Of a stretch of 64,000 bases of DNA, positions 2,483 through 64,000 are shown piece by piece (within the stretch, counting starts at the first letter, position 1; every line of letters begins with the position of its first letter). The DNA comes from Hexactinellida sp. DTS-2022 (Eukaryota > Porifera > Hexactinellida), in assembly GCA_028753945.1 (NCBI GenBank), contig JAPNXP010000014.1:2790001-2854000 (forward strand), in the 5' to 3' direction. A model generated the notes under the pieces. It worked only from the letters and a program-made list of their open reading frames with translations. It was not told where the DNA came from and did no database searches. The position numbers were made by a program, and so were the translations under genes.

Positions 2483-2614
2483 ATGTCCTACATTCATAAG
2501 TCAGGTGCACAAAAACGTGAAGAGAAGCGGTTAAGAGATGGAGAGTCAATGAAATGTTTGCAAACATTCAAGTCGGTATTCACAGACCAGATGAAAATTC
2601 ATCAAAACTTATAG
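2483..2614 (+). pseudogene. hAT transposase N-terminal segment, out of frame
   Basis: A reading frame starting at 2483 encodes a short basic peptide containing HKSGAQKREEKRLRDG. The KSGA-KR signature is typical of the extreme N-terminus of ZMYM1-like hAT transposases. It lies one frame off the main ORF at 2554 and stops at 2612-2614. Either a one-base indel has split the N-terminus from the rest, or a very small intron joins them. I favour an indel because no convincing donor and acceptor pair is visible. Confidence 0.65.
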
Positions 2615-4959
2615 AAGCAGTATTGGATGAGATTATTCTTGATGCGATGAACACTGTTAAGAATAAAAGAGTTTCAGAATACAGATCAGAAAATATTGCT
2701 ATTTGTGAATTTGAAGAGACTCAGTTGAGGATATACGACATTGGAGCCTTACATGAACATGTTTCGAAGAAAGAGATTGAGGAGTGGGTGAATGCTGGGC
2801 CTCAATCCAAACCATTATACATTCCTCCAGATGTCATAGGTCAAGCTTTTCCATTCTCTGTGTTTATTAAAAGAAGGCCTAATGGTGAATCTGAAAATAG
2901 AGATTGGCTTGTTTACAGTCAACTTAAGAATGCTTTATTTTGTTTTCCGTGCCGGTTATTTGCATATACAGAGCCTCTTAACAGGTCAATCCCTTCATAT
3001 GTATCATCGGTAAATGGTTGCGGTCCTAGTTCAAAATGGAAAAGACTATTTGTTCGTATACCTCAACATGAAAATAGCTCAAATCACAAACGATGTTACT
3101 TAGAATGGCGTCAATTGGAAATTAGTCTATTACACAACTCTACAATTGATATGCAACTTAATGCAAACATCACAACCGAAATCTCAAAATGGAAGGAACT
3201 ACTGCAAAGAATCATTGATGTTGTTCTCTTCTTGGGTGAAAGGGGTCTCTCCTTTAGAGGAGATACTCATGTTATTGGAGATGTTCATAATGGCAATTTT
3301 CTTGGAATAATTGAACTTATATCTCATTATGATCCAGTTCTTCGTGAACATGTTACAAAAGTGCAAGAATCTCAAAAGGAGGGAAAACGTTTACAGGCCC
3401 ACTACCTTTCTAAGGATTCTCAAAATGAATTTATCCATATATGCGCAGATAAAGTTCGCCGTTGCATCCTAGATGAACGAAATAATGCTAAATACTTTTC
3501 TATCATGGTAGATGCGACTCCAGATGTCTCACACATCGAGCAAAACACCTTCGTTTTAAAATACTTGACTCGAGAAAAGGATAAATATATAATTGGTGAA
3601 CGATTTTTTACTTTCGTTGATGACTCCGGCAAAACTGGTTCAGAGATCGCTACTATGATATTATTATTTCTAACAGAGAATGAAATTCCTTTTAAAGATT
3701 GCAGGGGTCAGGGCTATGATAATGCAAGTAATATGTCCGGAAAGTATAATGGAGTTCAAACCATTTTAAAGCAAGAAAATCCTTTATGCACTTTCTCACC
3801 TTGTGGATGCCATAGTCTAAACTTGTGTGGTGCCAAATCAGCCTTATGTTGTAAGGATGCAATAACATTTTTTGGAACAATTCAAACAATTTACAGTATA
3901 TTTTCATCAAGTCCAAAAAGGTGGGCAATTCTTGTTCGTAATATTGGAGTTTCGCTTCATGGTCAATCTCATACGAGGTGGACGGAAAGAATTGATAGTG
4001 TCCGCCCCTTTACTACTCATTTACCAGGAATTAACTTAGCTCTAGATGAATTACTGGAGCTTAATCTAACTTCAAAAATTAAAACAGAAATATTCGGTAC
4101 AATCAACTATGTTTCTTCTTATGAATGCGTGCTCATGTCAGCAATATGGTACAAGGTTTTAAAGGCTATAGACGAACGAAATCGAGTAATTGAGGCTCGT
4201 GATGCAACAATTGATATTGAAGTAAGGAATTTGGATGATCTACTTGATGAACTAAGAACCCTAAAAGAAAATTGGCCTTCCATTTTAGAGGAAGTGAATA
4301 AAGTTACCAAGGCTCTAAACATAGAACCACCATTGCCTGTAAGACAAAAAAAGAGAAAACGGTTCTTTGACGATAATAATGTTGAAAGAAGCGAAGAAAT
4401 TGCAAATGAGGTGGGATACCAGGCTGTCTTTAATCAGATTATTGACTGTGTTTTGGAAGGCTTGACTACACGATATAGAGCTATTTATCAAATAAATCAA
4501 CTATTTGGATTCTTATGGAATTACCTGGATATAGGTGAAGAAAATATTATCAATCAATGCAATGACTTAGAAACGCGTTATGAGACTGACATATCAGGCA
4601 AAGAACTTCAAGTTGAAGTTTTACACCTCAAAACAATTCATTATGCCAACATAAGCGATCATTCATTGGATCCACTAACACTTCTCAATACAATACAGAA
4701 AAATAAATTGGAGGGAATCTTCCCAAATTTGTGCATTTCCTTAAGGATATTTTTGACATTGCCAGTTACAATCGCCTCAGCCGAACGATCCTTTAGCAAG
4801 CTAAAATTAATTAGGAATTACTTGAGGAGTACTATGCTGCAAGAGAGATTAGTCGACCTTACTATTCTAAGCATAGAGAGTGAACTTGCTAGAACAATAG
4901 ATTTCTCGCAAGTAATAGATTATTTTGCATCTATTAAAGCACGAAGAGGCTTTTGCTAA
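2554..4959 (+). CDS. hAT-family transposase (TTF zinc finger, DUF4371, hATC)
   Basis: This 801-residue frame is uninterrupted. A TTF-type zinc-finger region lies at about residues 85-190 (NALFCFPCRLF, then the H and C ligands around HENSSNHKRC). A DUF4371-like segment follows at about 215-350, with GLSFRGDTH and the acidic block IMVDATPDVSH. The hAT core continues with GQGYDNASNMSGKYNGVQ and CGCHSLNLCG. The C-terminus is a canonical hATC dimerisation domain, including TIASAERSFSKLKLIRNYLR (about residues 740-765). The family cuts and pastes DNA with 8-bp target duplications, as seen around this element. The probable natural start is upstream at 2483 in another frame, so this ORF may lack its first 20-25 residues. 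The catalytic and dimerisation blocks look intact. The ATG at 2554 is the first in this frame after a stop at 2518. Confidence 0.9.
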   Translation: MFANIQVGIHRPDENSSKLIEAVLDEIILDAMNTVKNKRVSEYRSENIAICEFEETQLRIYDIGALHEHVSKKEIEEWVNAGPQSKPLYIPPDVIGQAFPFSVFIKRRPNGESENRDWLVYSQLKNALFCFPCRLFAYTEPLNRSIPSYVSSVNGCGPSSKWKRLFVRIPQHENSSNHKRCYLEWRQLEISLLHNSTIDMQLNANITTEISKWKELLQRIIDVVLFLGERGLSFRGDTHVIGDVHNGNFLGIIELISHYDPVLREHVTKVQESQKEGKRLQAHYLSKDSQNEFIHICADKVRRCILDERNNAKYFSIMVDATPDVSHIEQNTFVLKYLTREKDKYIIGERFFTFVDDSGKTGSEIATMILLFLTENEIPFKDCRGQGYDNASNMSGKYNGVQTILKQENPLCTFSPCGCHSLNLCGAKSALCCKDAITFFGTIQTIYSIFSSSPKRWAILVRNIGVSLHGQSHTRWTERIDSVRPFTTHLPGINLALDELLELNLTSKIKTEIFGTINYVSSYECVLMSAIWYKVLKAIDERNRVIEARDATIDIEVRNLDDLLDELRTLKENWPSILEEVNKVTKALNIEPPLPVRQKKRKRFFDDNNVERSEEIANEVGYQAVFNQIIDCVLEGLTTRYRAIYQINQLFGFLWNYLDIGEENIINQCNDLETRYETDISGKELQVEVLHLKTIHYANISDHSLDPLTLLNTIQKNKLEGIFPNLCISLRIFLTLPVTIASAERSFSKLKLIRNYLRSTMLQERLVDLTILSIESELARTIDFSQVIDYFASIKARRGFC

Positions 4960-6541: not shown

Positions 6542-6862
6542 ATCCGCATTCTTGTGATATTAATAGGCCTCTTTTTCTTGCATTTGACTTTGTACATATT
6601 CAAAAACCATTAGAAATAATTGGTTGAATCAAAAATCTGACAGTAAAACATTCGGTTATCCTGACTTAGAAAATTTTGGATATCGCGAAAAGAAGCAGAC
6701 ATAATTTTAAGGGATAAGAACAAGAATCGGTATCACATTTAATTTTATCCGAATTCTTTTCTCTTTATGGAAAATGTTTAATGTAAATATGCCATATAGA
6801 CATATCCGTTTAAATGATTCACTTTCTAGTCCTTTTACATTCAATGATGGACGTTTTTCTTA

Positions 6863-7822
6863 GTGAAACGAATTGTCTTTTGGTTAGACGCATGGCAATC
6901 ACTCCCTGGAAAGGAAGGAAAATTAAGTAGTCAGACCTTCACGAGCTTTATGCATGCTTGCGTTGCCTTGCCTCAGATAACTAATCATCTCACACAGAAT
7001 TGTGGGTTTTCCTACCTCCTAACTTCTTTCCTACAGACATACCCATTGGAACACCACTTTGGTCTATATCGTATGATGTCAGGTGCTAATTATCATGTTT
7101 CCTATCTCCAAATCTTAGAAACTGAACGTCGTCTAAAGGTTTCTAACATCTTAAAAATTTTATCCACTCACCCAGAGTCTAGTATTAGCTTGCAAGATTT
7201 CATTATGTCTTTTTCATCTTCACATCTCTTAAACTTAGAGTCTCAGACTGTGGTAGATCTTGATCCTTTCTTAAATGAAATATCTGATCTATCCATTATT
7301 GAGTGTGACACCCAACTCCTTCAGTCATTAACCTTTATTGCCGGTTACGCCACACACCAATACCTGAAACACAGCAGTCAATTATGTCACATATGCCAGG
7401 ATATGCTAACTATTGAGAAAGATTTTCTCATTGATGATACCACATCGAAGCCTGAGTTTAAGCTGATAGAACTTTCTGATCGTCGAGGTTTAAATTATCC
7501 TTCTGAAATAGTATTGGACGCAATCATTGTTGTTTGGAAACTTTTTATACTTATCGAAAATAATAGTGAACTGATGAGCCTACTTTTAGGTGGACCTTCT
7601 AGGAAGATTCTTGTAGACCTTACTCTTAACTACTTGGAAGATAGTAATGATTCTGACAGTTGGAAATACACTTGTCCGTCTTGTGATGTATGTGGGTTGT
7701 CAATCGTGCCTAGGCTGATTTTTGTTGCATCGAATCGCTTAATTGCAAATAAAGTAAAAAATTACAACTCCATAGTAGTCTCAAAAGGTATTGAGAAGCG
7801 AAAGTTGAAAAAATTTAGTTGA
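6863..7822 (+). pseudogene. C-terminal third of the copy A transposase
   Basis: This 319-residue open frame is the best preserved part of copy A. It begins at WLDAWQSLPGKEGKLSSQTF and includes ITNHLTQNCGFSYLLTSFLQ, then PLEHHFGLYRMMSG, whose glutamate is the likely third acidic catalytic residue of the RNase H fold (inference from THAP9 and P-element organisation). The tail has CHICQDML and CPSCDVCG cysteine pairs and ends in a basic KRKLKKF tail. It cannot be translated as part of a full transposase because upstream blocks are frameshifted and inverted. Confidence 0.8.
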
Positions 7823-17382: not shown

Positions 17383-20258
17383 TTAGTTAGATTTCAATTT
17401 CTTTAACTTTATAGTATTGTCTTTCTTATCTGCTTGTAGGGCATTCAAGTTTTTAACTTTATTAGAAAGGATGCAGTTAGAAGTAGAAGTTAGCAGTTTG
17501 GCTAATATATTCCATCTGAGTATACCACAATCTTTACATACTCCTCTCCAGAACTCTGCATATTCGTTTTCTATTATGGTAGTTGACAAGCTCACTAATA
17601 TACTTCTTGAAGGTCCAGTCATAAAATTATCCATTAAGGTTAGGTTGTTCTCGATCGACGAAATAACTTTCCACACTGTGACAATAGCTTCGATGACTGA
17701 GTTGCTAGGCCATTTGAGTGAACCTCGATCGATAATTTGAATAAGTTTATATTTCGAGTCAGATGGTTCCTCAAATTCCATATTCTTTATTTCTGTGAGG
17801 AGGGAGAGACAGGTTGTGCACTTACTAGATTGCTTGTAATACACGTGTACGGCATACCCTGCTATAAAAGATAATGCCTGAAGAATTGGCGGATGTAATT
17901 CAATTTCTGAATAATCTTGGATTGTTGTCATATAGCTGTCAAGATTTTAATTAGAAATAGACTCGGTGTAACAAGAGGGTGAACATGTGTCTAAAAATCC
18001 TTCAACGATGTTTTATCCTTGTCACTTTTTCTTGAAAATAATTTTAGAATACTCGATAACTTCAATCTACGTTCTGTTTCCAATATCTGACAGAAGCTTA
18101 CATGGTATTGAGCACCTGACATCATTCTGTAGATCCCAAAGTGATGTTAAAGTTGGTCGTTTTGCAAAAATGAGGAAAGAACATATAAGAAACCTCAATT
18201 TTGGGTAAGATGGTTTACAATCAAAGATAGTGCAATACAAGAATGGCGCAAACTTGAAAATGTTTGGGAGCTTAGTTTTCCATTTTTTGAAGGAAGAGCC
18301 TTCCAACATTCAACCCATTTAATAACACATTCGAGAAAACTGAATCTAGGATCATTGGAAGATATCGGCTTAGAAAAATCATCCTTTAATAGAATACCTT
18401 TATTGGGAGTATTGATGTTGAAAATTTTCCATACTTTACATATAGTAGAGATAAAGTTTGCAGTTTGAGAGTTGGTTGAGATTTGTCGTGATAGATGCAC
18501 AAGGTTTAAAGCAGCAGCTGTAGAATCATCAAATATTCTTAACGCCAAATTAACATTTTGCCGTTCAAAGGTTGAGGGCCAGCAAGATTTAGAAGTCAAT
18601 TTTGGGGCTAATTTGGCAACTGAGTGTTGGTCGTCTTTATATAAGAGTCGAACATCTTCAAGGATTGCACTGTTCGTATTAGAAAAGTCCTCAAAGTTAG
18701 GATAGATAAATGTTTTATTGTAGTCCTTCTGGTTTAGCCAGTTGTTACGCACAGACTTGATAATATGAACAAAATCAAATAACAAAAACAGAGGTCAGTT
18801 GGGATCATTTGGATGGGGAACAATAGGGTCCAAGGCATGCATTGGCGAAAATAATTTAAAAATATTTACATTCATTGGATAGTTATCCGTACATAGGACT
18901 TGGACGAAAAGTCCACATGACTCAACATCTTCAATGACAGATTTAATGGTAGGGAGGAGTTCGGTTGCTGAGGAGTTCGTACAAGGAAGTAAGCGAACAA
19001 TCGTTGACCATTTTCTAGACAAACTAGAGACCATGAAAGCGAAAACTGTTTTAGCAGGGTCATTAGGATTCACTGAAGTCCCCAATATTCGACCACCTTT
19101 ATATGTAAAAGTTGACTTAACATGGATTTCGTCCATTTGAATTATAACATTACGTTCCCAATTGTTGAATTCTTTAGTAGCTTGTTTGAGATAGTTGATA
19201 AACTCAATATCCAAACCAAAATTGGAGTACAGGCGATTAAGTGTGGAATGATGTGGAAGAGAGAGACAGTCCAGGGATTGTAGAAATTTATAACCAATTG
19301 GTGATATAAGTTGACATTTAAGGGCAGCAATAAGAGTTTCAATATCATACTTACGAGTATGTTTGGATATTAATGAATTTTCCAATTGACATAGGATGAA
19401 TTGAAGACGTACTAAATATTCATGTAGCTGATCAGTCGAATCGTTATCTGGTGAAGCAGTGAGTAACTCAATAGCGCGCCGTATGTGTCTGGTTGCTTCA
19501 TTAACATGGTGTTGGAACGATGCATTAGCGAGTTCTAGAAAGATATCTGGAGACTTGGCGGTGGTAGATGATTGATCAAGTTCTTCCAATAAAATATCAA
19601 TGTGCCGTATGTCGTTGATAGTAGGTAGGGATAACAAAAAGTATTGACCATTAAGACATCCAATAGTGTGTAGTGTATCAGTTATTGTTAACGTACAAGT
19701 AATAAAAATACTGTTTTTCATGATACAGGGCTTGATGAAATGTAGATTTGTAGCATCGGTGGACCAACTAGTCCACTGTTTAGGCAAATCGAATGGTTTT
19801 CGTTTAGACACCAATTCTTGTAGTGTGGTTACTTTATATTGTTCTTCTTCTACCCGAAATTCTCCTAAACTCTGTTCTACAGCTATAAAGAATAGCTTAT
19901 CATCTCGGGCTGAACGGTCTATTCCCTGTGGTTTAGAATGTGAAGATGAAGAAAAGTAACTGGGACAGTTAGGGAGAACCCTGGGGATTACGTTTTTACG
20001 TAATTTGGGAATAGTACGCTGAATTTCCAAAACGGATCCATCCAGTTGAGGTATTGAAAAATTGGTCTCGATGTCTTCCGGAAGAAAATGTTTCGCACAT
20101 ACATAAATGTTCTTCAGGTCTTCAATACCTTCTCTGGAGAGTGCTCGTAACCACTAATTGACCAAGTCGGGTGGACAAGTCGGGACGTAAAAAACTGGAG
20201 TATAAGATTCTCCTGCATAGTTGCTTCGGCATCCTGGTGCAGAACACTTGTTGGGCAT
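17383..20258 (-). pseudogene. THAP-domain P-like transposase, copy G, nearly in frame
   Basis: This is the best preserved P-like transposase in the window. From the ATG at 20258 (MPNKCSAPGCRSNYAGES) it keeps a single frame to about 17935. The THAP C2CH finger is complete (C5, C10, then VCAKHF) and is followed by VLPNCPSYFSSSS, then VIIQMDEIHVKSTFTYKGGR, VLCTDNYPMNVNIFKLFSP, PLFLLFDFVHIIKSVRNN and KSCWPSTFERQNVNLALRIF. Five in-frame stops interrupt it: TAG 20154-20156, TGA 18795-18797, TGA 18195-18197, TAA 18147-18149 and TAG 17991-17993. One frameshift near 17930 leads into 17383-17931, the C-terminal region (LQALSFIAGYAVHVYYKQSS, KCTTCLSL, CKDCGILRW). The TAA replaces the glutamate codon of the E-HHF catalytic block. 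The decay is by point mutation more than by deletion. Confidence 0.88.
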
Positions 20259-22772: not shown

Positions 22773-22954
22773 GTAAGTTGTGACTCATCTAATTTTCTGT
22801 CATGTTGAGCCTATTATTTATTAGTATATGTTTAATTGAGGATCTTTATCAGGCAATGTTTCCAGACTGTGTTTATGTGTGTCCGAATCTCGTAACCTTT
22901 GATTTAGTCTTTATTTTGTATTACCTATTTTAATATTCTTCTCTTTGTATTTAG
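22773..22954 (+). other. Probable 5' UTR intron of the PNUTS gene
   Basis: AAAGTAAGT at 22771 is a near-consensus donor. A pyrimidine-rich stretch ending TTTGTATTTAG (AG at 22953-22954) is a good acceptor 43 bases before the start codon. This suggests a short non-coding first exon ending at about 22772. It is a prediction from consensus only. Confidence 0.5.
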
Positions 22955-22997
22955 AGATCATTACATTTTGTTGTATTATGTTTTATCGGATATGAAA

Positions 22998-25088
22998 ATG
23001 TCTGGGGAAAATCCTATCGATTTGCTGTACCGTCTGGACCCTATTCTTGGAAACACCGGTTGCTTGCGTAGTTCGAATGATATCAACTTGTTAGTAAAAT
23101 TTATGGAAGGAAGTTCTTTGATGGTATATCAATGTACAGTAATTAATATACTCAAAAATACAAAAGCCCCTAGTACTTTAGAAAGATTTGTTGATTCAAA
23201 AGGCTGGGAATATCTTAGTAATTGGCTTAAAAATGCCAAAGATAGAAACGAAACCCCATTTCTTATTGAATTGATTCAAGTATTAGTGAAGTTTCCTCAG
23301 ACTATTGAAAGCCTAAAACAGGGGAACATTGGGAAAATCGTTAAACAACTGAGTAAAAATGATAATTTTGAATTACAAAATTTATCCAAAAATGTTCTTA
23401 TTAAATGGAAACGAATTTTGAAAGACAATCAGCGATCAACTAAGAATATTTACGATAAAACGCAAATCGAATCTATTGAAGGATCTACTATACCAAATCA
23501 AGATTATTTCAGCACCCAAGTTATTAACTCTGTTTCTTGTAAAGCAATTGCAAATCGAGTTGGCTCTATAGCTCCTAAACTTCATTCTTCTCAAATATCT
23601 GAGGACAATACTTACATTAACAAATTTGAAAAATCTGATTCTCAGAAATTATTTAGAATTACAAAATCCGTTCGAGAAGAAGTTGCAGTAAAAAAAGCTC
23701 GAGAGTATACAGAACCTGAATTAAAACATAACATGAGAGAATCTCAAAGTGACAAGGATACTGAAAGTTTTTCGCAGCATAAGATTCTCTCTAGCCCGAA
23801 TTCACTCAAGCATTCCAATTCGCCAACTGAATATCCAACCCTAAGTGATAAATTTTATGGAAATAAGCCAGAATTTTATAGTAATAAAAAATTATCGTCA
23901 AAGCTTTCAAGTAACTTGTTAGCTAAAAATATGTTGATGTCTTCTGTTAGAAGTTCTTCTGTTGAAAGCAAAAAGTTTTCTGCCGCCATTTTCGAATCAA
24001 CCAACAGGAAATCTTCTTTAAAGCGTATCCAGATTTCACCCAATCCTCAAAAGCTCGTTCCTGATAGGCCATCATATATTCTTGAAAGTTCTAATACATC
24101 TATAGAACATCATATATCTGCTGTTAACCAATTTGCTGAGAGTGATGATCTCTTATCCAATTATTTGATTACGAAAAGTAATTTGAGTACTCAATTCAAA
24201 CCCTTGGTACGGAAACATGTCACGTGGGCTCCTGATGAGACTCTTACCGAAGTTCGTTTTATAGAACTTGATGAAACTGAAATTAATTCAATCCAAGTTC
24301 ATGGGAGCTTTCATGATGCCATAAAACAAGAAAAACGTGCTGAGAGATCTGCTTTGGCTCATATTTTTGCGAATGATCGTATGCTTGCTTTGGTTCAATG
24401 GATCACTCCCAAATTAATTGAGTTTTTGGAACCACTGATTGAGAGTGGTTCTAAGAGTGAAGAATTCATGACTCAGTCAAATCGAGAATTATCTGTGTTA
24501 GCTTTACTGTTTCTAACAAAGGACTGCGCACCTGATGACCCTGGTGAACCCGACATAGAAGATATTCACATTTTTAAAGAACCCAAAATAATTCCCCTAT
24601 TTGAACCTGGAAAAGAACCCCAACAAGAAATTTCATCTTTATTTAGTGATTCATCCGTAAAATTACCATGCTCACTTCCCAGTAAGTTAATAGATTCTGA
24701 TCTACCAAGACCCACTTTACTAAGAACTGTTGCACCATTCCTACCTAACGTCCATCTCATTTCAGTTGCATCTCAAATTCCTATTATAAATTCTAATATC
24801 ATACCTGGTGGAACTTTACACCCAACTGCTAATCTGCCTAATAATTTTTATCCTCGCAATCAGTCAATGAGATCATTTAATCCGAAATCCCTTCTACTAC
24901 CCAATACTCAGTTTAGTAGATTTATTCGTCCAATTAATCAGATTGCCAAAGGACCTGTCAATACATTTTCGAGGTCAAGCTTTAAGAATTTAGGAAAAGG
25001 TCGAGGTCGAGGAAAAAAAACTAAATTATGTCAGCACTATCTCAACGGTTTCTGTAAGAAAGGAGAGTCTTGCGATTATCTTCATTAA
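22998..25088 (+). CDS. PNUTS / PPP1R10 homologue (PP1 nuclear targeting subunit)
   Basis: The 696-residue protein has the three landmarks of PNUTS in order. Residues 1-145 form a TFIIS N-terminal (LW) domain resembling the vertebrate protein, with NPIDLLYRLDPILGNTG at the start, then LERFVDSKGWEYLSNWL and KQLSKNDNFELQNLSKNVL. Residues 404-430 hold the PP1-binding RVxF-type motif KHVTW (Lys406-Trp410) followed by the diagnostic LDETE acidic block. The last 20 residues are a CCCH zinc finger (CQHYLNGFCKKGESCDYLH) after a GRGRGK basic stretch. In animals PNUTS recruits protein phosphatase 1 to chromatin and to the RNA polymerase II termination machinery. I prefer the ATG at 22998 over those at 22968 and 22992 because the LW domain begins there. 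The coding sequence has no intron, which is unusual for this gene in most animals, and shows no damage. The middle (150-400) is Ser/Asn-rich and disordered-looking. Downstream, no canonical AATAAA is close to the stop. Confidence 0.92.
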   Translation: MSGENPIDLLYRLDPILGNTGCLRSSNDINLLVKFMEGSSLMVYQCTVINILKNTKAPSTLERFVDSKGWEYLSNWLKNAKDRNETPFLIELIQVLVKFPQTIESLKQGNIGKIVKQLSKNDNFELQNLSKNVLIKWKRILKDNQRSTKNIYDKTQIESIEGSTIPNQDYFSTQVINSVSCKAIANRVGSIAPKLHSSQISEDNTYINKFEKSDSQKLFRITKSVREEVAVKKAREYTEPELKHNMRESQSDKDTESFSQHKILSSPNSLKHSNSPTEYPTLSDKFYGNKPEFYSNKKLSSKLSSNLLAKNMLMSSVRSSSVESKKFSAAIFESTNRKSSLKRIQISPNPQKLVPDRPSYILESSNTSIEHHISAVNQFAESDDLLSNYLITKSNLSTQFKPLVRKHVTWAPDETLTEVRFIELDETEINSIQVHGSFHDAIKQEKRAERSALAHIFANDRMLALVQWITPKLIEFLEPLIESGSKSEEFMTQSNRELSVLALLFLTKDCAPDDPGEPDIEDIHIFKEPKIIPLFEPGKEPQQEISSLFSDSSVKLPCSLPSKLIDSDLPRPTLLRTVAPFLPNVHLISVASQIPIINSNIIPGGTLHPTANLPNNFYPRNQSMRSFNPKSLLLPNTQFSRFIRPINQIAKGPVNTFSRSSFKNLGKGRGRGKKTKLCQHYLNGFCKKGESCDYLH

Positions 25089-34392: not shown

Positions 34393-35861
34393 TTTCTTAA
34401 TATTAACTCCAATCTTTTTTTCTACTTTCCACGGGCCTCCGAACAAATTGGATAGACTATCGCCACGAGGTTTTTCATCTACCAAAACCCAGTCATCCAC
34501 TTCAATCGTACTCACTTTAGAGGGTTCATGAGGACTCACCTGGTGCTAGCATTAGGTATATAATTTAGAATGAAGGTAACTTCTTAAAGCAGACTCGGCC
34601 AGTGTGTTTTTGTAATTTCGCGGTCTTGTAATAAGTATCGGAGGGCTGTTTTGAACGATTGTATTGTTCTCTCGACTTGTCCATCACCTTGAGGGTGGTA
34701 GGCTGAAGAATGCCGCTTCTCGATACCCAACCGCGCACACATCTCTCTAACCCTGTTGCCGTCGACTGTGGGTTCCTGATCCGATAATAGTATGTTCGGA
34801 ATACCATGACGGTTAAATCAGCAATGTTCCAACCCCTCAATAACTGAAGAATCTTCTTGATTTTTCAGTGGCCAAGCTTCAAGATGCTTGGAGAAGAGGT
34901 CTACCGCCATAAGCACATAACGAAAACCTTGGATAGCCCTAGGGAAAATCGCCAAGTCATACGCAACCATCGCTCGTGGTCGGTTAATAGGAATCATGAT
35001 AGGTATCAGGGGTTCTTAGGGTTGATATGAGCGTTTGTTTTTCAGATATATCGAACACGAAGAGCTTACCCGTTTTACATCTTTCCACATTGAAGGCCAA
35101 AAATATCTCTGACTAATCTCCTTAAAGGTCCGGTATATTCCTGCATGACCCCTCTTGTGGGAAGACAAGAGAATGGATTGATGTAATGATTTAGGAGCCA
35201 CTACTTGGTGACCGCGATAAACTAAATCTTGCTCTATCCTCAAATTTGTCTGGCGCTTTACTCGTCCCTCCGACACAAACCCTTTGTAGCTAAGTTGACG
35301 ATGTGCATTGGAAATAAGGGGGTCCTCTCGTTGTGCGATTTTCATCTGTCCACAATAAGAATCTCGAACAATAGTGTATATAAATCGTTCCCTGAATTCG
35401 ACCTCATCCTGAATAATCGGATCTTCTTCGCTAGGAAAACGACTAAGGTGATCGGCCACCCTGTTCTCCTTTCCTCTGCGATATCGCACGTTATAATTTA
35501 ATGACTCTAGTTCTATAATCCAACGAGAAAACTTGCCCCTAGTGTCGGATTGTTTTCGCATCCATTGTAGAGGGTTGTGGTCCGTTAACACTTCAACTAT
35601 TGGTACTGCATGTAGATATTTACGCCATTAGCTTGTCGCTGCCACTATGGCCCAGGCTTCTAGTTCTGAAGCGCTGTAGTTCCTTTGGGCATTGTTAAGT
35701 CTACTAGAAAAGAAAGAAATGGGTCTTAGAGTTCCTTCAAAATCTGCCTGAGAAATTACGGCTCCAACACCAGCTCTTGAAGCGTCGCATTCAAGTAAGA
35801 TTGGCTTATTCCATTCAGGAAAGGCTAGAATTATCTCGCTGGAAACGAGTACCTGGCACAA
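34393..35861 (-). pseudogene. Ty3/gypsy RNase H and integrase
   Basis: RNase H is visible at 35628-35861 (PILLECDASRAGVGAVISQA, YSASELEAWAIV) and at 35440-35591 (LTDHNPLQWM, ENRVADHLSRFPSEED). The integrase HHCC zinc finger follows at about 35060-35160 (LSSHKRGHAGIYRTFKEISQ, WKDVKRVSSSCSIY). The integrase core runs through 34565-34990 with VAYDLAIFPRAIQGFRYVLM, IPNILLSDQEPTVDG and AYHPQGDGQVERTIQSFKTA, giving the D, D and E positions. Stops and frame changes at about 35000, 34840 and 34560 disrupt it. The family integrates double-stranded cDNA copies of the element. Confidence 0.85.
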
Positions 35862-46039: not shown

Positions 46040-46211
46040 TTGTATACACATAATAGTTTATGTATAACGCTCAAAAACAATTGTTCAATGGTGAATAGTT
46101 ACCTTTGTCACCTACTGGGGCTTCACCGATGGTTATTTTCTTATATAATCAGTGTACAAGCAATGAAAGTATATCTTGCTAATTGTTATTAAATATATTT
46201 ACCTGGTTTGC

Positions 46212-47591
46212 ATGTTCGCCGAGACGACAAAGGGAAAACGTGCAGTAATCCATGAAGGATATTTGTATCAGAAAATTCGAGTTAATGGTCCTAAGTCATG
46301 GTGGAGATGTCAAGATAGGAGCTGTAATGGGAGGATAAGTATGGATGATGACATTGTGATTAACGTGTCAGGAATTCATCATCATCCTCCCAATATGGCG
46401 AAGATTACTGCACAGACTGTAATAAGAAAAATGAGAAAAAGAGCTATTGAAGAAACTACATCAATCCCTAAAATATATGCTGAAGAAATAGCGGCTGTTT
46501 CAGGGTATGAAGGAGTCGAACATTCAGAATTAGCGATCAATTTACCACAGTTTCCCGCTATAAAATCGTCACTTTATCGAGGCCGGATGACAAAATATCC
46601 TTCACTACCACAAACTATTCAAGATATTACTTTTGGTGGTGATTGGACTCGTACTATTCAAGGGGAAGACATGTTTCTTGCAGACTCTGGTGAGAATGAT
46701 CCTGAAAGAATTATAATGTTTGCAACAAAGAAAAATTTGGAAATATTATGTAACTCGGACTGTATTTATCTCGATGGAACTTTCAAATCATGTCCAGATT
46801 TATTTTATCAGCTCTTCACTCTCCATGCTTTCGTAGAGGGGAAACAATTCCCGTTTGTTTATGTTCTTCTACCTGGAAAGACAAGAATTTTATATGATCG
46901 AATGTTTCATATGCTGAAAGAAGCTTGTTGGAATAGCAACTTTCAAATGAATCCAAAGAGAATAATGTCAGACTTTGAAAGTTCTTTGATCCCATCAATT
47001 GCAATTCAATTTCCAGGATCCAAGCATAAAGGTTGTTTTTATCATTTTTCTCAAGCAATCTGGAGGAAAGTTCAAAGTCTAGGTTATCAAACCGAGTACT
47101 TGAACAATGATCAATTTAGGGTATTTATACGAGAGATGATGGCACTTGCTTTCATTCCTGAGTCGGAAGTAAGCATTGCGTTCCAGTCACTTTGTGCAGA
47201 TACACCTGAGGGCCTCAATGTTGGCGAATTTATAGATTATATGGACAGGACGTGGATAAATGGAACGTTCAAACCTGATTTGTGGAACGTTTTCGACTCG
47301 AATGGACCTCGCACAAATAACCATCTAGAGGGATGGCACAATAGATTGAACAGCTTTTTGGGAAGGCGGCATCCTAATATTTATCAATTGATGCAATTTA
47401 TTACAAAAGAACAAGCTGTAATTGATATTGAAATTATCCAACTACAAGCTGGTGCACTAGCTCCACCAAAGAAGAAGATGTACATTGCACTAGAATGTAG
47501 GATTGAAAATTTACGTCAGAAATATACGCGCGGTGAATTGGATATCGATGAATATTTGCTCAGGATAGCAAATAATTTAGCAAATAGATAA
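46212..47591 (+). CDS. MULE transposase with FLYWCH zinc finger
   Basis: From the ATG at 46212 (MFAETTKGKRAVIHEGYLYQ) the frame encodes about 459 residues without interruption. Residues 5-70 form a FLYWCH-type finger: YLYQKIRVNGPKSWWRC, CNGRISMDDD, and the HHHP ending. The MULE catalytic domain follows with first Asp in CIYLDGTFKSCP (about residue 187), second Asp in RIMSDFESSLIP (about 255) and the downstream CFYHFSQAIWRKVQ helix. The conserved RTNNHLEGWHNRLNSFLGRR (about 365-385) is the C-terminal MULE block. An earlier start in the same frame would add about 12 residues. The protein moves Mutator-like elements by cut and paste. With inverted arrays on both sides this is the most complete autonomous element in the window. 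No RING finger is fused here, unlike the other two MULEs. Confidence 0.9.
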   Translation: MFAETTKGKRAVIHEGYLYQKIRVNGPKSWWRCQDRSCNGRISMDDDIVINVSGIHHHPPNMAKITAQTVIRKMRKRAIEETTSIPKIYAEEIAAVSGYEGVEHSELAINLPQFPAIKSSLYRGRMTKYPSLPQTIQDITFGGDWTRTIQGEDMFLADSGENDPERIIMFATKKNLEILCNSDCIYLDGTFKSCPDLFYQLFTLHAFVEGKQFPFVYVLLPGKTRILYDRMFHMLKEACWNSNFQMNPKRIMSDFESSLIPSIAIQFPGSKHKGCFYHFSQAIWRKVQSLGYQTEYLNNDQFRVFIREMMALAFIPESEVSIAFQSLCADTPEGLNVGEFIDYMDRTWINGTFKPDLWNVFDSNGPRTNNHLEGWHNRLNSFLGRRHPNIYQLMQFITKEQAVIDIEIIQLQAGALAPPKKKMYIALECRIENLRQKYTRGELDIDEYLLRIANNLANR

Positions 47592-56790: not shown

Positions 56791-56867
56791 GGTACCTTTT
56801 TAGGGGGCGCTGCTTTAGTTCGAATTTTGAGGTTGTCATTAGTTAGAATTGTCTGAATTGCCACAAG

Positions 56868-57020
56868 TTCGAATTGATTTGTAGTCTATTGGAACAAGTT
56901 CGAATCGATTTGTAGTCTATTGGAACAAGTTCGAATTGATTTTTAGTCTATTGGAACAAGTTCGAATCGATTTTTAGTCTACTGGAACAAGTTCGAATCG
57001 ATTTGTAGTCTATTGTAATC
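56868..57020. repeat. 31-bp minisatellite, about 5 units
   Basis: The unit CTATTGGAACAAGTTCGAAT plus CGATTTGTAGT repeats about five times. Period and core AGTTCGAAT match 38229-38345, and both arrays are at the same end of MULE-RING relics. Confidence 0.9.
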
Positions 57021-57348
57021 TGTTCGAATCCATTGAAATTTGAAAGTCTTTGTTAGTTTTGGGGTTAATTTGAATCGACCGTTATCTATTGACACTTTTC
57101 TGAATCCTTTTTTAACAGGATTATATTGTATCAGGATTTACAACATATAATGTACAGTGTTTTTTGTAAACACTAGGCGAGTATATATTCTGAGAGTGTT
57201 TATCTTTTTGTATAATGGAGTACACAATTAAAGATTTCAAACGCGCTACAGGAAGAGTTTTTGCAACTTCAGATTGACACAAGTACATCAAATCCAATAC
57301 AAACACGAAATTCACTTACCTTAGATGCGTCTTATCTAGGACATTCAG

Positions 57349-57717: not shown

Positions 57718-58860
57718 TCTGGCCTCTATTTTGTTACTGCATCTAGGGAAATTATGTCCTGCATTGACAATCCTCTCGCTACAATGGCCTCAAAAGCTAT
57801 AATGTCTGCAGGGAATGAAAACCAATGTGTTAGTTCTTTGAAAGAGACACACTACGCATATAGGTTCTGTGTTGGTATTTGATCATCTTCATCTTCAGAA
57901 AATTCTGATTCACTGGATGGAGGAAAATCTTACGCTTTGATATTCTACAGTATGGCTAAGAGATTGAAAAATTCCCATGGGTCTATTTCTCCATCACTGA
58001 GTTTTTGTCTCGGCCTGTTAATTTCCCTACCTTGACACCATCGACGAATTTAATTATCTGTCATTAATTAATTCATTGAGCTTTGTTATGAAGGTCCATA
58101 TTCGAGGGTGACTGCAGCTCATCCTTGATTTTAGTTAGAAGTGATAACTTTCTGCCCCATTATTTGTTGATTTATTAATTTCATGAATGGAGAGTTGCTC
58201 AGGCGATATTTGATTAAGCCAGCGTTTCTTGAAATATTTCATCAGCTTTTTCAATCTCGGAATGTCTTCAGTTGGCAGACAGGAACTTCGATCAAGGTAA
58301 AGTTGGGAATAATAGAGCAGCAGGCAAAAAAGGTATAGACATTAAAAGTTGTATAGTCTTAACAATATGGAAGTTCTTAAAACTCTGACTCAGTCCAAGT
58401 TTATGAGTCTTCGCCAAAATGCGTTGAGTGAAGTGAAATCAGCACCATAGACTTTCATTGTTGATAAAATTCCTTAAAAGCGTTCCGAGTAGCTGGTTCC
58501 CAATTGGACATCGAAGCTTTTGGTTGAAATTGAGGAACGTGTACAACTAAATCCTGTAAATTATCCGAGTAAAGTTCTTGACTCCTGGAAGTCATTAAGC
58601 AGTGGATTGTATGCATCGTATGTCTATAACAGCTACAAATATTGTCCATAGATAAACAAACTGAATGGGGACTGTCTGAAAGGTACCATCAAACAGGATG
58701 TTTGTCGCCTCACTGAAAAAACTCATCATTTCATCGGAGTAGAATATGACAGCTGTTTGTCCTCCGTGTTACCAATTATTAGTAATAATCCTCAATATAC
58801 GGGGAAGCTGACAGAAAATCTAGCAATGTTCGCAGTCAGCTTTTTCTCTTCAGATTATTA
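57690..58860 (-). pseudogene. MULE transposase catalytic part and RING finger (- strand)
   Basis: Reading on the - strand from about 58770: GGQTAVIFYSDEMMSFFSEA and NILFDGTFQTVPIQFVYLW (first catalytic Asp at about 58695). Then come decayed frames to STNNGAESYH (about 58145), SCSHPRIWTFITKLNELIND, and finally 57690-57850 with CVVCLFQRTNTLVFIPCRHY, a stop, GHC and FPRC, ending EARLEIFN. This is a RING finger homologous to that at 39.5 kb. It faces the N-terminal half at 57349-57717, and both halves include a GxQTAV block at the junction. Multiple stops and frameshifts. Confidence 0.72.
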
Positions 58861-58999
58861 TTATTCATCATCTCAGGTTGAAAATGGAACCTGGTAACTG
58901 TTAAAAATTTCACCGACGACGTCCTATTTAACAAAAAGCGATGACGTCATATTTAACGGTGATAAAAAATTCCATTTGATCATATACTTAATCTAAATA
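58861..58999. other. Unannotated spacer
   Basis: Contains TTTCACCGACGACGTC and GATGACGTCATATTTAACGG, a small imperfect inverted pair. No gene. Confidence 0.4.
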
Positions 59000-59081
59000 G
59001 CTCATCCGAAAGAGCTAGGAGAGTGATTTTCATATAGGACCTACCTGTTATACTAAAGAGTCAAAAGTTACGATCGTTTAT
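59000..59081. repeat. Left terminal inverted repeat of the 4.7-kb element
   Basis: Pairs with 63598-63686. The outer 16 bases form a stem of GCTC/GAGC. No other copy of this sequence is seen in the window. Confidence 0.85.
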
Positions 59082-59639
59082 TATGTTTATTATGGTTCCC
59101 ATTCATCGCTAGATTCCTCAGATGAGGGAAATTCTGAAACTTCACTTGTACTTGCATATGAACTACTATCATCAAGGTATTCTTCCACGTCTCTCTCTGA
59201 ATCATTGTCTTCACAGTCTGCAGCTGCTTCATATGTATCGTTTGTTATGTCTTTTCTAAATTTTGACTTTTCAATGTTCTTGTCAACTTTAGTTTCTTTG
59301 GTTATTTTGTTTGCTTTTGTTAAGTATCGACATCACTTTTTTTGGCTCTTGTACATCCCTATCCGAAGATTCATCGTCTGCAAACGTATCAACAACTTGT
59401 TCTTTCGCCTTGGGTTGCTTGTGCAATTTGGAGGCATCTGTCGGCCAATAAACCAATGCGGGACTATTTTCTGTGCATTGTCATTCCACTTCCATCCATA
59501 TTATTCTGGATTAAGCTGTTTGATTGCAATCTCCCCGCATTGTTGCCAAATAACTGTTTGAATTTGCGCTCTTTTTAATGCTTGTAGGAGAGAATCTGGA
59601 TCAGGTGGCAAGGACACAGTGGACTTCTCCTTTTGTTGT

Positions 59640-62600
59640 TGATACAACCTCATTCAGGTTTGAAGATAGCTTTCTCTCTTAATACCACCATGCATACGTG
59701 TAGTTATGAATTGCTTCAAATCTTCGATTTTCTGCTTGCACAGTGGCTCTTCCCCTTGCAGATTATGTAGTAAATAGCAATTGTGTGGAGCCTTTAATAA
59801 CTTATTAAAACAAGCACTTTCCCAACTCTGATAAATATGACTTTGTCACATCTGGTTAGCGAATAGAATGCTGGGAGAATGGCGCATACTGTCTTTCCTA
59901 AAAAAATTACAATTAAGCCAATATCAGCAAACCTTTCGTGGTCATATTTCATATACCATTTGTTAGTAATAGAGAAAGAATAATCAAAACGTCTGTGTCC
60001 TTTGATACCACTTAGTAACCACTACCACATCTTGCCCTGACAGGATTGCGTGCAGTACAAGTCGTGTATACGCTTCTTCGTGATTGCAATCGAAAAGCAA
60101 ACTATTACCAAGACTATATCCTGAATGTGTGCTCTTTGGATGACGATAAAGGGGCATGGCAATTTAGATCTTCCCTCTGGTGATTGAAGAAATTCTGAAA
60201 TTATCGCTATTAGATCCTCCTTGTTGTCGCCGCGATGAAAAAATCTTCCCAGCGCAAGCCTTGGAGCATTTTTTGGTCGACACTTTGAATGTGGGCTCTT
60301 GGACCTTGCTCCCCTCTCTCTTGTCGTGTCCCTTCTTTCACGCTCGTATCTTTGTAAGTGTCGTTGATGATTCCTATGCAAGATGGTTTTGTTTCCTTTG
60401 TGGTGTGACAAAATGAATGAGGCTCAGTTAAATTCTTTGAATGTTGTCGTTGGTTTCATTGATCATATACGTAGCAGCCATTCTATCAACAAACCATTCA
60501 CAATGCTGTTGAATGCTGTTAGTACACGACTCTGACTGCCTAAAAATGCATTCAGTTGTTGCAATTGCCAGTGGAACGGTTGTGAGCGGATAATTGAATG
60601 CTTCTTCCATGTTCACAGACTTTGAGACAATCAATCCAAAAGCTTGCCTAACCTCTTTTAACACCTGGATTGCCTTTGGTGCCTTCTTCCTTTTCTCTAA
60701 TCCGGTACAAACCTTGTTTCTTACAATTGGCTCAAAATAGCCCACACTTCCGTCAACAAGGCATTCTCAGGAAATTTTCATACAGTTTGTTGCGAATTTT
60801 GCAGCTCCCATCATATCATTCACTATATTCGATGGAATTTCAACCCCAGTGGCAAATGAACTTGGCTTGTCATATGAGAACGGATCTATGCCATATAGAG
60901 CAAGTTGTTTCTTTAGTTTTGTCACGTGTTTACTGTGAATTTTCTTACTTCCATTGCACAGTACCTTATACTTTGAGTAAGTTTTGAATGCAACCATATT
61001 GCGAAGTTTTCACGCAGTTTACAGTGCACATGAATAGTAAGCTCCCATGTGTTCACAGCAGAAATGTCATTGCTAAATCCAGCACGATATGGACCAGCAT
61101 ATCCTTTGTTAGTTTGTTCAAAAGCTCCATAATCAAGTCTCCGTGAATAGATGTAAACCTTTCTCCGGAGACGCTTGCACCAAAACCCCGTTCTGACTAG
61201 TGTTGAAAAGCTTGTTTGTTATCTGTGCACATGTTCTGGAGAAAGATATGCTGGTAACTACAGTAACGGCATAATTTTGATGATTTAATGCAAAGGTAAG
61301 GGAGAGCATTTCACGCTCAGCCTCAATATGCCTGCTCAGATTTCCTTCTCGCACTGCAGATATCATCGCCAGCATTGTGGATACATCTTTAGGGCACATT
61401 ATTGTGAAATGTCCTTCAGTGCCATCTTTGAAACTAAGAACACCAGAGACCAGGGCACTGAAAGAATTATGGCATAAAACCTGATTCAAAGATTCTTTGC
61501 TTGGATTTTGTCTAATAATTTTGATATTTTCTTTTAAGTCAGCATCAATATTTGTGTTCTGCTTTGTAATCTGTTCAATGCGGAACTGAACTAATGCATC
61601 AAAGCAATCTTTATGTAAACGCATGCATCTGTAATAGTGACGTCCCTCAAACGCTTGCTCTGCAGAGCCCTTGGCGATTATATCTGCATCAACACACCAC
61701 TGTTGCATACCTCTGAATGGTAACGCTTGTATAATAATCGTTGCATCACTCGTAATTGGTGAAACCCACCCATCAACAATAAAATATTCTTGTAAAGTTC
61801 TTTGTGCTTCCACAGTATGTGGCAAAGCTTGGCGTAGACTGCCTCGTCAGCATGAACAAAGACATGGTCAATCTCTAAATCCTTGATTAAATCTAGCATG
61901 GAATCCATATACTCTTTGAGCACAGGATAGTCTGGAGGTTCAGGTTTAACTGGCAGGTATCTTGGATGCATTTCGTTGGCATAGTATAGTAGATACCTAT
62001 AAAATATGCAAAAATATTTGATAAGATTCTAAAAACCTGGGGTATATTCACACAGTGGATGCCGGTTATAAGAACACCCTTGGGAGTAGCGATAGATGTT
62101 CTTATAATCGGCAACTACTTTACAAAAATTCAAGAGTGACTGCAAGTGACTGTATTATTATTATCTGCTTGTTGAAGGCAGTCCACGAGCCAAGTGGGTC
62201 AAAAGCATCAGAAATGTCTGCTACGCATCCTGCAACTGACCAAACTATGTCTTTCCGGAGACACCGTTCTAATTCTCCTGTGCAATCCGTTTCAACTTGA
62301 TTCTTAAATAAAGTGGTTCTACTTTTTTTCAAATCATGTAAGGGGCAGTTTCATTTGATAGATCTTCAGCTGCACTTGAAAAAGCTAGTGGGAATTCAAT
62401 TTGCTCACCAAAAGTTGGCAATATCCCTTCTGTCTTGGATGGTATTTGGAATAATGTACAATTGTATCGTGTGTTGTTCCCGAACCTGTTAATGTATTTT
62501 GACGGCTATCATTATTATTAAGAGTGCTGTGACATACTACACCTTTCCGCATATTTGGATACAAACATTCTCCTGCAATTACCATTCAGGCCCAATCCTG

Positions 62601-63070
62601 ATTTGGCAGGCGGATAGAAGTGTACGACGCAGAATGATTGCATTTGTGTAGGTAATCAATAGTTCCTTGCTTCCAGTAATCCTGTGATGAATCAACCTGA
62701 AAAGGAAAATATTTGCATTTACAATTTATCTATTTCGGCTCACTCAGCTGAGTCAGCTCTTTTCTAAGTTAAATATAGGAGAAAAGTAATGGACAACAAC
62801 AGCACAGAAACAAGACTAACCTAGAATGGCTTGTTTTGGAGAAGGTTGCTTTTCCAAAATTCTTGCTTCTGCCCTGCCCTCTGAACATCTGTCTATCCCA
62901 CCTTCGTTATATTTAATTTCAAACCATCAGTGTTCTTTGTCCCATAACAGTTTAAACAGATCTTCTTGTCATAGCTAACTTTCAAACGAAGATGCCTATT
63001 CTGTTGATCCTGTGGTGGATCCAACGTAAGGGAGTTTTCTTCACTTTCAATCTACCTTGGAGACTTGCTC
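59640..63070 (-). pseudogene. Decayed multi-exon gene, HEEA-TR / LPAF-CD family
   Basis: Read on the - strand, blocks appear in order: a zinc-like CLNCYGTKNTDGLKLNITK (about 62900-62960), then after a probable intron (donor GTTAGT at about 62820, acceptor TTTTCAG at about 62699) DYWKQGTIDYLHKC and SRQNTLTGSGTTHDT (62460-62500). 61678-61971 holds DHVFVHADEAVYAKLCHILW and LLMGGFHQLRVMQRLL. 61133-61825 holds QQWCVDADIIAKGSAEQAFE, EGRHYYRCMRLHKDCFDALV. 60428-60997 holds FEPIVRNKV, PLTTVPLAIATTECIF and CEWFVDRMAATYMI. The tail has CNHEEAYTRLVLHA (about 60045-60085), DTDVLIILS and LPAFYSLTRCD (about 59850-59880). These match, from memory, a very abundant uncharacterised invertebrate family whose C-terminus I take to be PIN/FEN-nuclease-like (HEEADTR, DTDV, LPAFHALTGCD). 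Frameshifts (for example near 61700) and stops show it is inactive. Confidence 0.65.
62052..62116. mobile_element. Small Tigger-like relic inside the 4.7-kb element
   Basis: CAGTGGATGCCGGTTATAAG and GATGTTCTTATAATCGGCA are inverted; the outer right end is decayed. Confidence 0.5.
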
Positions 63071-63597
63071 ATATCGTAGAGAGTAAATATTAATTTTAAT
63101 TCCAAATTTTAATCTGCATGAATTGTTTACAGCACAATTGGCTTAAGTAACCCCGAAATCTTCTCTAAAACGGTAGTAAAATATGTGCCTTATCTTGAAT
63201 ATCTATGTTTAGTTCTCTCCAATCCTTGGCATTTTATAAATTTATCAAAATCACTAGCGGTTATATTTCTATAGGCGTCCATTTTCCTCATTACTTCATT
63301 TCAAATTATACAATTTAAACTGTCCTTGTTTCTTGGACTGAAAAGAGGACACACATATGATATGACTTCTTTTCTGCTTCTTCCATTTTACTTGTGTCAA
63401 AACAATAGCAGAATAAATTATGTATCTCGACTTCCTCTAGCACCACCTTAGGAATCTATTTAATCTATGCTGGGTGAATGAGACTAGTAAATTTTGAGCA
63501 GGTGGTAGGATTACATACAAGTTATAGCAGTAAAGAAGGATTCAATTGCATTAATAATAGAATATAATAGAAAACCTTTAGAATAAACATACAGTAT

Positions 63598-63686
63598 ATA
63601 AACGATCGTCACTTTTGACGCTTTAGTATAACAGGTGTAGTTCCTATATGAAAATCACTCTCCTCTTCTAGCTCTTTCGAATGAGC
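63598..63686. repeat. Right terminal inverted repeat of the 4.7-kb element
   Basis: Reverse complement of 59000-59081, ending CGAATGAGC. Immediately followed by the repeat CAGTTTCTTCGATAAACTCG. Confidence 0.85.
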
Positions 63687-64000
63687 CAGTTTCTTCGATA
63701 AACTCGGAACATATAAACAAATATATATATATATACGTATATAAATATAGTGAATGGACAAAGGTATTCGACCATTCCATTATATTTACAATAGTTTGGG
63801 GTAAATTTGGAGTTAGCTCACTGTTTAAAAGCAATATTTTATTAAAATTCTATCCATCTCTAGTTTAGGGGAACTTGAAGTTAAATTTCAGTTAATACAT
63901 GATTTGTCATTTTTCTGGTAATATTCTACTTTTTCGATTGTCAATGACTTTATGCCAACTTATTATTCAGAGATATGGAACATTTTGAAGTAGATAAATA
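63687..64000. repeat. Dispersed repeat shared with 50263 and 51088-51690
   Basis: 63687-63735 matches 50263-50330 directly. From about 63737 to the window end the sequence matches the reverse complement of 51088-51690. An (AT)n tract lies at 63720-63740. The element runs off the window. Confidence 0.75.

Follow-up and report, generated by a model that had tools for sequence, protein, structure and literature searches.

The window analysed here, a 64,000-nt stretch of a hexactinellid sponge genome, contains the remnant of a DNA transposon bounded by long terminal inverted repeats (TIRs). Relatives in the same genome carry 3-bp target-site duplications (TSDs) and have paralogous empty sites, and the element is therefore a cut-and-paste DNA transposon that generates a 3-bp duplication. 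This degenerate element is probably best placed in the AcademX lineage of the Academ superfamily. A very numerous and mostly nameless protein family is now tied to a transposon with defined ends, a 3-bp duplication and empty sites, a link that would explain the commonness of such orphan genes, and a testable function is suggested for the Pfam family DUF6589.

Ends, copies and target sites of the element

The first-pass annotation had described inverted repeats of about 85 bp, with hairpin tips, bracketing a single minus-strand gene. These near-perfect repeats are present (58995-59081 and 63598-63691; arms of 39, 28 and 29 nt with complementarity of 95, 96 and 86%), with one minus-strand gene between them, but the 85 bp are an internal portion of a repeat that extends further outwards. 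In the family the TIR is 305-306 bp long, with 90.9-99.3% identity between the two ends in all nine copies that retain both, and its outer end, TATACGGGG, is sharp and common to the aligned copies. The TAGCTC..GAGCTA hairpin therefore exists as described but sits about 200 bp inside the TIR rather than at the element end. Alignment of copies placed the whole element remnant at 58796-63686 and, together with a genome search with the TIR, located its two ends. The left TIR (58796-59100, plus strand) is complete at 305 bp and includes the outer end, whereas the right TIR (63582-63686, minus strand) retains its inner third. The left flank closes with ..CAA directly before the left TIR, and no target duplication is visible in the window because the outer 204 bp of the right TIR have been lost. 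Two-ended relatives are 4.6-7.5 kb in size.

The genome search (112.4 Mb in 18 contigs) gave 25 TIR matches, 22 of them full-length or nearly so; the others were the shortened right TIR in the window and two pieces of one interrupted TIR on contig C7. All matches except these two pieces (23/25) lie at the ends of 13 stretches carrying the gene or part of it, which bears out the earlier proposal of a mobile unit in which TIRs and gene occur together, and supplies the multiple copies with the same TIRs around the same gene that it had suggested looking for. Short TIR-only derivatives, also anticipated, were absent among the 23 matches in these 13 stretches.

An exact 3-bp duplication flanked six of the nine two-ended copies (TAA, GAT, GTT, TAT, TAT and TCA). 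When left flanks were compared with the right flanks of other copies as a control, a 3-bp match was found in 3 of 72 pairs. None of the nine copies showed a 4-, 5- or 6-bp flank match, and the remaining three (L024, L030 and L031) had no TSD at their ends. Empty sites were sought with the six pairs of flanks joined, one 3-bp copy being kept in each; the resulting counts are lower bounds, as 40 of 3,841 candidates were scored. The joined flanks of L026 gave at least 41 uninterrupted junction-spanning matches at paralogous sites (96-99% identical) and those of L023 at least two (93% and 85%), while the other four sites gave no junction-spanning match among the matches listed. Reading the letters of the empty site at L023:284-543 revealed a single TAT where L026 has TAT on either side. 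Insertion thus occurs with a 3-bp stagger and precise ends. The earlier suggestion that there was no target duplication, and perhaps an unusual mechanism, does not hold for a family with a 3-bp TSD in 6/9 copies and paralogous empty sites; empty sites revealing the duplication, which had been proposed as a check, were found for two copies. Among the matches listed (40 of 3,841 candidates scored), the repeat into which L026 inserted is strongly concentrated on one contig: C11 carries 33 of the 41.

Relatives of the window copy have moved recently: L022 and L023 are 99.3% identical across 5,569 bp and lie in different surroundings. L025 and L026 share the same internal rearrangements, yet their flanks differ and so do their 3-bp duplications; the defective copy must therefore itself have moved, presumably mobilised in trans. 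The window copy and its inverted neighbour L024, about 38 kb away, are 99% identical over 2.8 kb and 89% identical over the rest, and both lack the same stretch of about 730 bp in exon 1. Two of the 13 stretches, L028 and L029 (contig C3, positions 1905649 and 1928808), hold a 3' and a 5' half separated by about 23 kb; their TIRs point in the same direction, and they look like halves of one element broken by inversion. The left flank of L027, when translated, resembles the C-terminal end of the P-element-like gene product encoded at window positions 6848-7819 (ANKVKNYNS), suggesting that one transposon inserted into another.

Other transposon genes in the window comprise a hAT gene (dimerisation domain and DUF4371), a TNP-like RNase H protein taken for P-element-like, a MULE gene with a FLYWCH finger and a retrotransposon RNase H/integrase fragment, listed in that order at 2521-4956, 18795-20150, 46167-47588 and 35016-35624. 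An open frame at 22908-25085, whose product combines a TFIIS/Med26-type domain with a CCCH finger at the C-terminus, is apparently a host gene among transposons. A tandem array at 56863-57034 has a 31-bp unit in 5.5 copies with 91% matches.

Gene structure and the two candidate nuclease regions

The gene lies on the minus strand, is read from the right TIR towards the left TIR, and has three exons that we placed by alignment to relatives. Exon 1 (62822-63386, start codon 63386-63384) encodes a zinc-finger-like N-terminus; in relatives, a CxxC..HxxC motif can be read in it twice, and in the window copy the deletion of about 730 bp falls at about 62846-62852 relative to L022. The aligned part of exon 2 (62165-62695) contains the first candidate catalytic Asp, in a region that reads LDNND in relatives and LNNND in the window copy. 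Exon 3 (59090-61996, frameshifted), placed by alignment and Pfam, encodes the second half of the DUF6589/candidate DDE region followed by a FEN-like domain. Its landmarks in the window copy are HADEAVYAK, GGFH and the candidate-E region, then HEEAYTR, DTDV and LTRCD, and its stop codon (59092-59090) falls inside the left TIR. Introns have GT/GC-AG borders, the second donor being GC in L022 and, as judged by translation, GT in L023; once joined, the exons of relatives amount to about 1,600 codons. Frameshifts and stops, together with the exon 1 deletion, have broken the window copy. Long open frames survive in L022 and L023, with 924 aa apiece in exon 3, yet interruptions occur in both sets of frames, and no fully intact copy was found among those with readable frames. 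The motifs HEEADTR, DTDV and LPAFHALTGCD, named in the first-pass annotation, are indeed those of the family, although at these places the copy in the window has HEEAYTR, DTDV and LPAFYSLTRCD.

The central region of the protein, in exon 3, matched Pfam DUF6589 (PF20231) above the cut-off in both L022 (E 4.5e-10) and L023 (E 7.5e-11). Genome-wide, the PF20231 profile gave five matches at E<=1e-5, one of them in a divergent element, L040, whose alignment with L023 covers 354 positions (22% identity, E 3e-12). Residues common to these two lineages are DNxD in exon 2, HADEAVYAK/AFDAPLY followed by GGFH/GGLH, and the E in ITELFN/AHEQNN; DNxD, HADEAVYAK/AFDAPLY and this E may supply a D-D-E triad. 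Pfam assigns DUF6589 no function, the transposon protein had no match in NCBIfam, a PDB sequence search with the candidate DDE region returned chance matches only, and our literature search found no mention of DUF6589 by name.

The C-terminal domain keeps the order DG, WDVY..S.K..R..RG, EEADTR, DTDV and GCD..S..GK in L041, L042 and L023 (L023 having NDTY in place of WDVY), and these motifs are strongly conserved, with invariant residues seen in the alignment. By motif reading, an archaeal FEN-1 with a solved structure (1a76) has similar motifs in the same order: AIDG, VFDGEPPKLK..TR, EGEAQA, QDYD and GTDY..GIG.KRA. The ordered acidic motifs are consistent with a FEN/XPG-like domain. We approached this assignment with AlphaFold2, Pfam and NCBIfam, hmmsearch of PDB, hhalign, pairwise alignment against shuffles, and an ordered-block test. 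One AlphaFold2 model each of the FEN-like domain and the DDE region gave mean pLDDT of 30.6 and 33.6, from alignments of 4 and 3 sequences, values too low for either fold to be read. Neither L041 nor L042 matched Pfam XPG at E<=10, hmmsearch of PDB with the FEN-like domain found nothing at E<=10, and hhalign against archaeal FEN gave a probability of 0.11 per cent, compared with 0.20 for a control region. Two of 12 pairs reached the 0.1 level against shuffles (L043-L045, 0.027; L023-L046, 0.067). In the ordered-block test the score was reached by 4 of 1000 shuffles for L042, 266 for L023 and 963 for L041; blocks fell on 3/5 expected motifs in L041 and L042 and on 5/5 in L023. Among eight unrelated control stretches, two were reached by 6 and 23 of 1000 shuffles, and a held-out archaeal FEN, the positive control, gave z 36.7. 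No test gave support beyond chance or control, and the assignment rests on motif order. The PIN/FEN-like nuclease named in the first-pass annotation thus agrees with the ordered motifs but gains no support from the structural and statistical tests. Our literature search found no paper on a PIN-domain transposase with TIRs in cnidarians.

Both regions are abundant. The first 594 aa of L040 matched at least 84 places in the same genome and the FEN-like domain of L042 at least 133, in keeping with the earlier description of a very numerous, mostly nameless family. At 30% identity, the L042 domain matches that of L023 (E 4e-17) and that of L022 (E 8e-17), and the FEN-like domains are thus homologous across lineages. 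We built clusters from all 84 L040 and 133 L042 matches listed and counted domain order. Of 48 DDE-like clusters, 40 had a same-strand FEN-like match within 5 kb downstream, and one also had a match upstream, which came from a neighbouring element with its own DDE-like part; no DDE-like cluster (0/48) had a FEN-like match on the opposite strand within 6 kb. DUF6589/DDE-like and FEN-like domains therefore travel together in many lineages. Conversely, 59 of 99 FEN-like clusters had no adjoining DDE-like match among the matches listed; some of these are a short L040 repeat, and others may be lineages in which the DDE part was missed. This repeat, a sharply bounded stretch of about 600 bp from the FEN-like part (L040 2684-3282), occurs whole or in part at no fewer than 36 places (83-96% identity; 40 of 192 candidates scored), where the rest of L040 has no adjoining match, and is possibly a short amplified derivative. 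Scans of viral contigs found no relatives.

Proposed mechanism and alternative explanations

In the mechanism that we propose, the DUF6589 region would act as a DDE transposase of the RNase H-like kind, cutting at the TATACGGGG ends and linking these to the two target strands at points 3 bp from each other. The zinc-finger-like N-terminus would bind the long TIRs, the C-terminal FEN/XPG-like nuclease would trim flaps or cut the second strand at transposon or target ends, and host repair would fill the 3-nt gaps. Such a fusion of transposase and flap-type nuclease would, if true, be a useful mechanistic system.

A stronger form of this proposal, which we regard as possible but unlikely, is that one polypeptide holds two nucleases of which the FEN-like one performs an obligatory step of transposition, for example second-strand cleavage or flap trimming at the 3-bp stagger; such a two-nuclease family, which counts dozens of lineages in a single genome, may be distinct from reference Academ. 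Also unlikely is a separate, unnamed superfamily defined by DUF6589 plus a FEN-like nuclease and resembling AcademX in TSD length only. The absence of a Pfam function, an NCBIfam match and a paper found by name for DUF6589 would suit this explanation; however, the element agrees with the published description of AcademX in its TSD length, its TIRs and its size, and also in having a nuclease, as suggested by its motifs, rather than a helicase.

The first-pass annotation had proposed that a PIN/FEN-like nuclease is itself the transposase and replaces the DDE core. The strong conservation of the FEN-like motifs favours this model, and the DDE fold is a candidate only, but a separate domain with D, D and E in RNase H-like order lies upstream and is common to two lineages that are only 22% identical. 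The fixed 3-bp TSD and long TIRs seen here are typical of DDE elements. With DUF6589 and its candidate triad upstream, and the FEN-like domain downstream in 40/48 clusters, the nuclease thus appears to accompany rather than replace a candidate DDE core, and we consider the replacement model improbable.

Membership of another superfamily with a 3-bp TSD (CACTA, Harbinger or Zator) shares that TSD length but is very improbable, since the termini are TATACGGGG rather than CACTA, the six TSDs extend beyond TWA, and no Pfam match to their transposases was found at E<=5 in the four stretches scanned. CACTA/EnSpm elements have CACTA/G termini, unlike the ends of this element. Harbinger elements have a 3-bp TWA TSD and their own DDE domain; the TSDs here include GAT, GTT and TCA, and there was no Pfam match to the Harbinger transposase in the four stretches scanned. 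Kolobok elements have a 4-bp TTAA TSD, and no 4-bp match occurred in any of the nine two-ended copies. Finally, if a host gene family had become trapped between inverted repeats unrelated to it, a window copy that has no TSD of its own would be accounted for, but this is hardly credible given 13 stretches with TIR and gene (or gene part) together, the 3-bp TSD in 6/9 copies and the empty sites of two copies.

Comparison with known systems

The C-terminal domain resembles the FEN/XPG/EXO1 5' nucleases, by motif reading, in the order of its acidic motifs and in the GCD..S..GK block, and differs from them in showing no statistical sequence similarity. Pfam DUF6589 matches the central region of L022 and L023, yet its profile finds five places in the genome compared with at least 84 found by the L040 protein.

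The AcademX lineage was reportedly described by Kojima in 2020. The nuclease of AcademX elements is XPG-like, and they encode an Academ-type DDD/E transposase, a part for which the DUF6589 region with its D-D-E residues is a candidate here. No helicase was matched by Pfam at E<=5 in the four stretches scanned. According to the literature, AcademX has TSDs of 3 or 4 bp and AcademH TSDs of 9 or 10 bp, and these lengths seem tied to the encoded nuclease and helicase (PMC10045372). AcademH, which would share its superfamily with the element if the AcademX placement holds, combines a helicase with a 9-10 bp TSD, whereas here the TSD is 3 bp and there is no helicase match. A curated bivalve set includes 100 Academ elements, whose mean size is 5,565 bp (PMC10294476), and the TIRs and 4.6-7.5 kb size of our elements fit Academ as described. 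The 3-bp TSD, the nuclease suggested by its motifs and the lack of a helicase match agree with the description of AcademX. Placement in AcademX by these described features is likely, and the element is most likely an ordinary new member of this described group.
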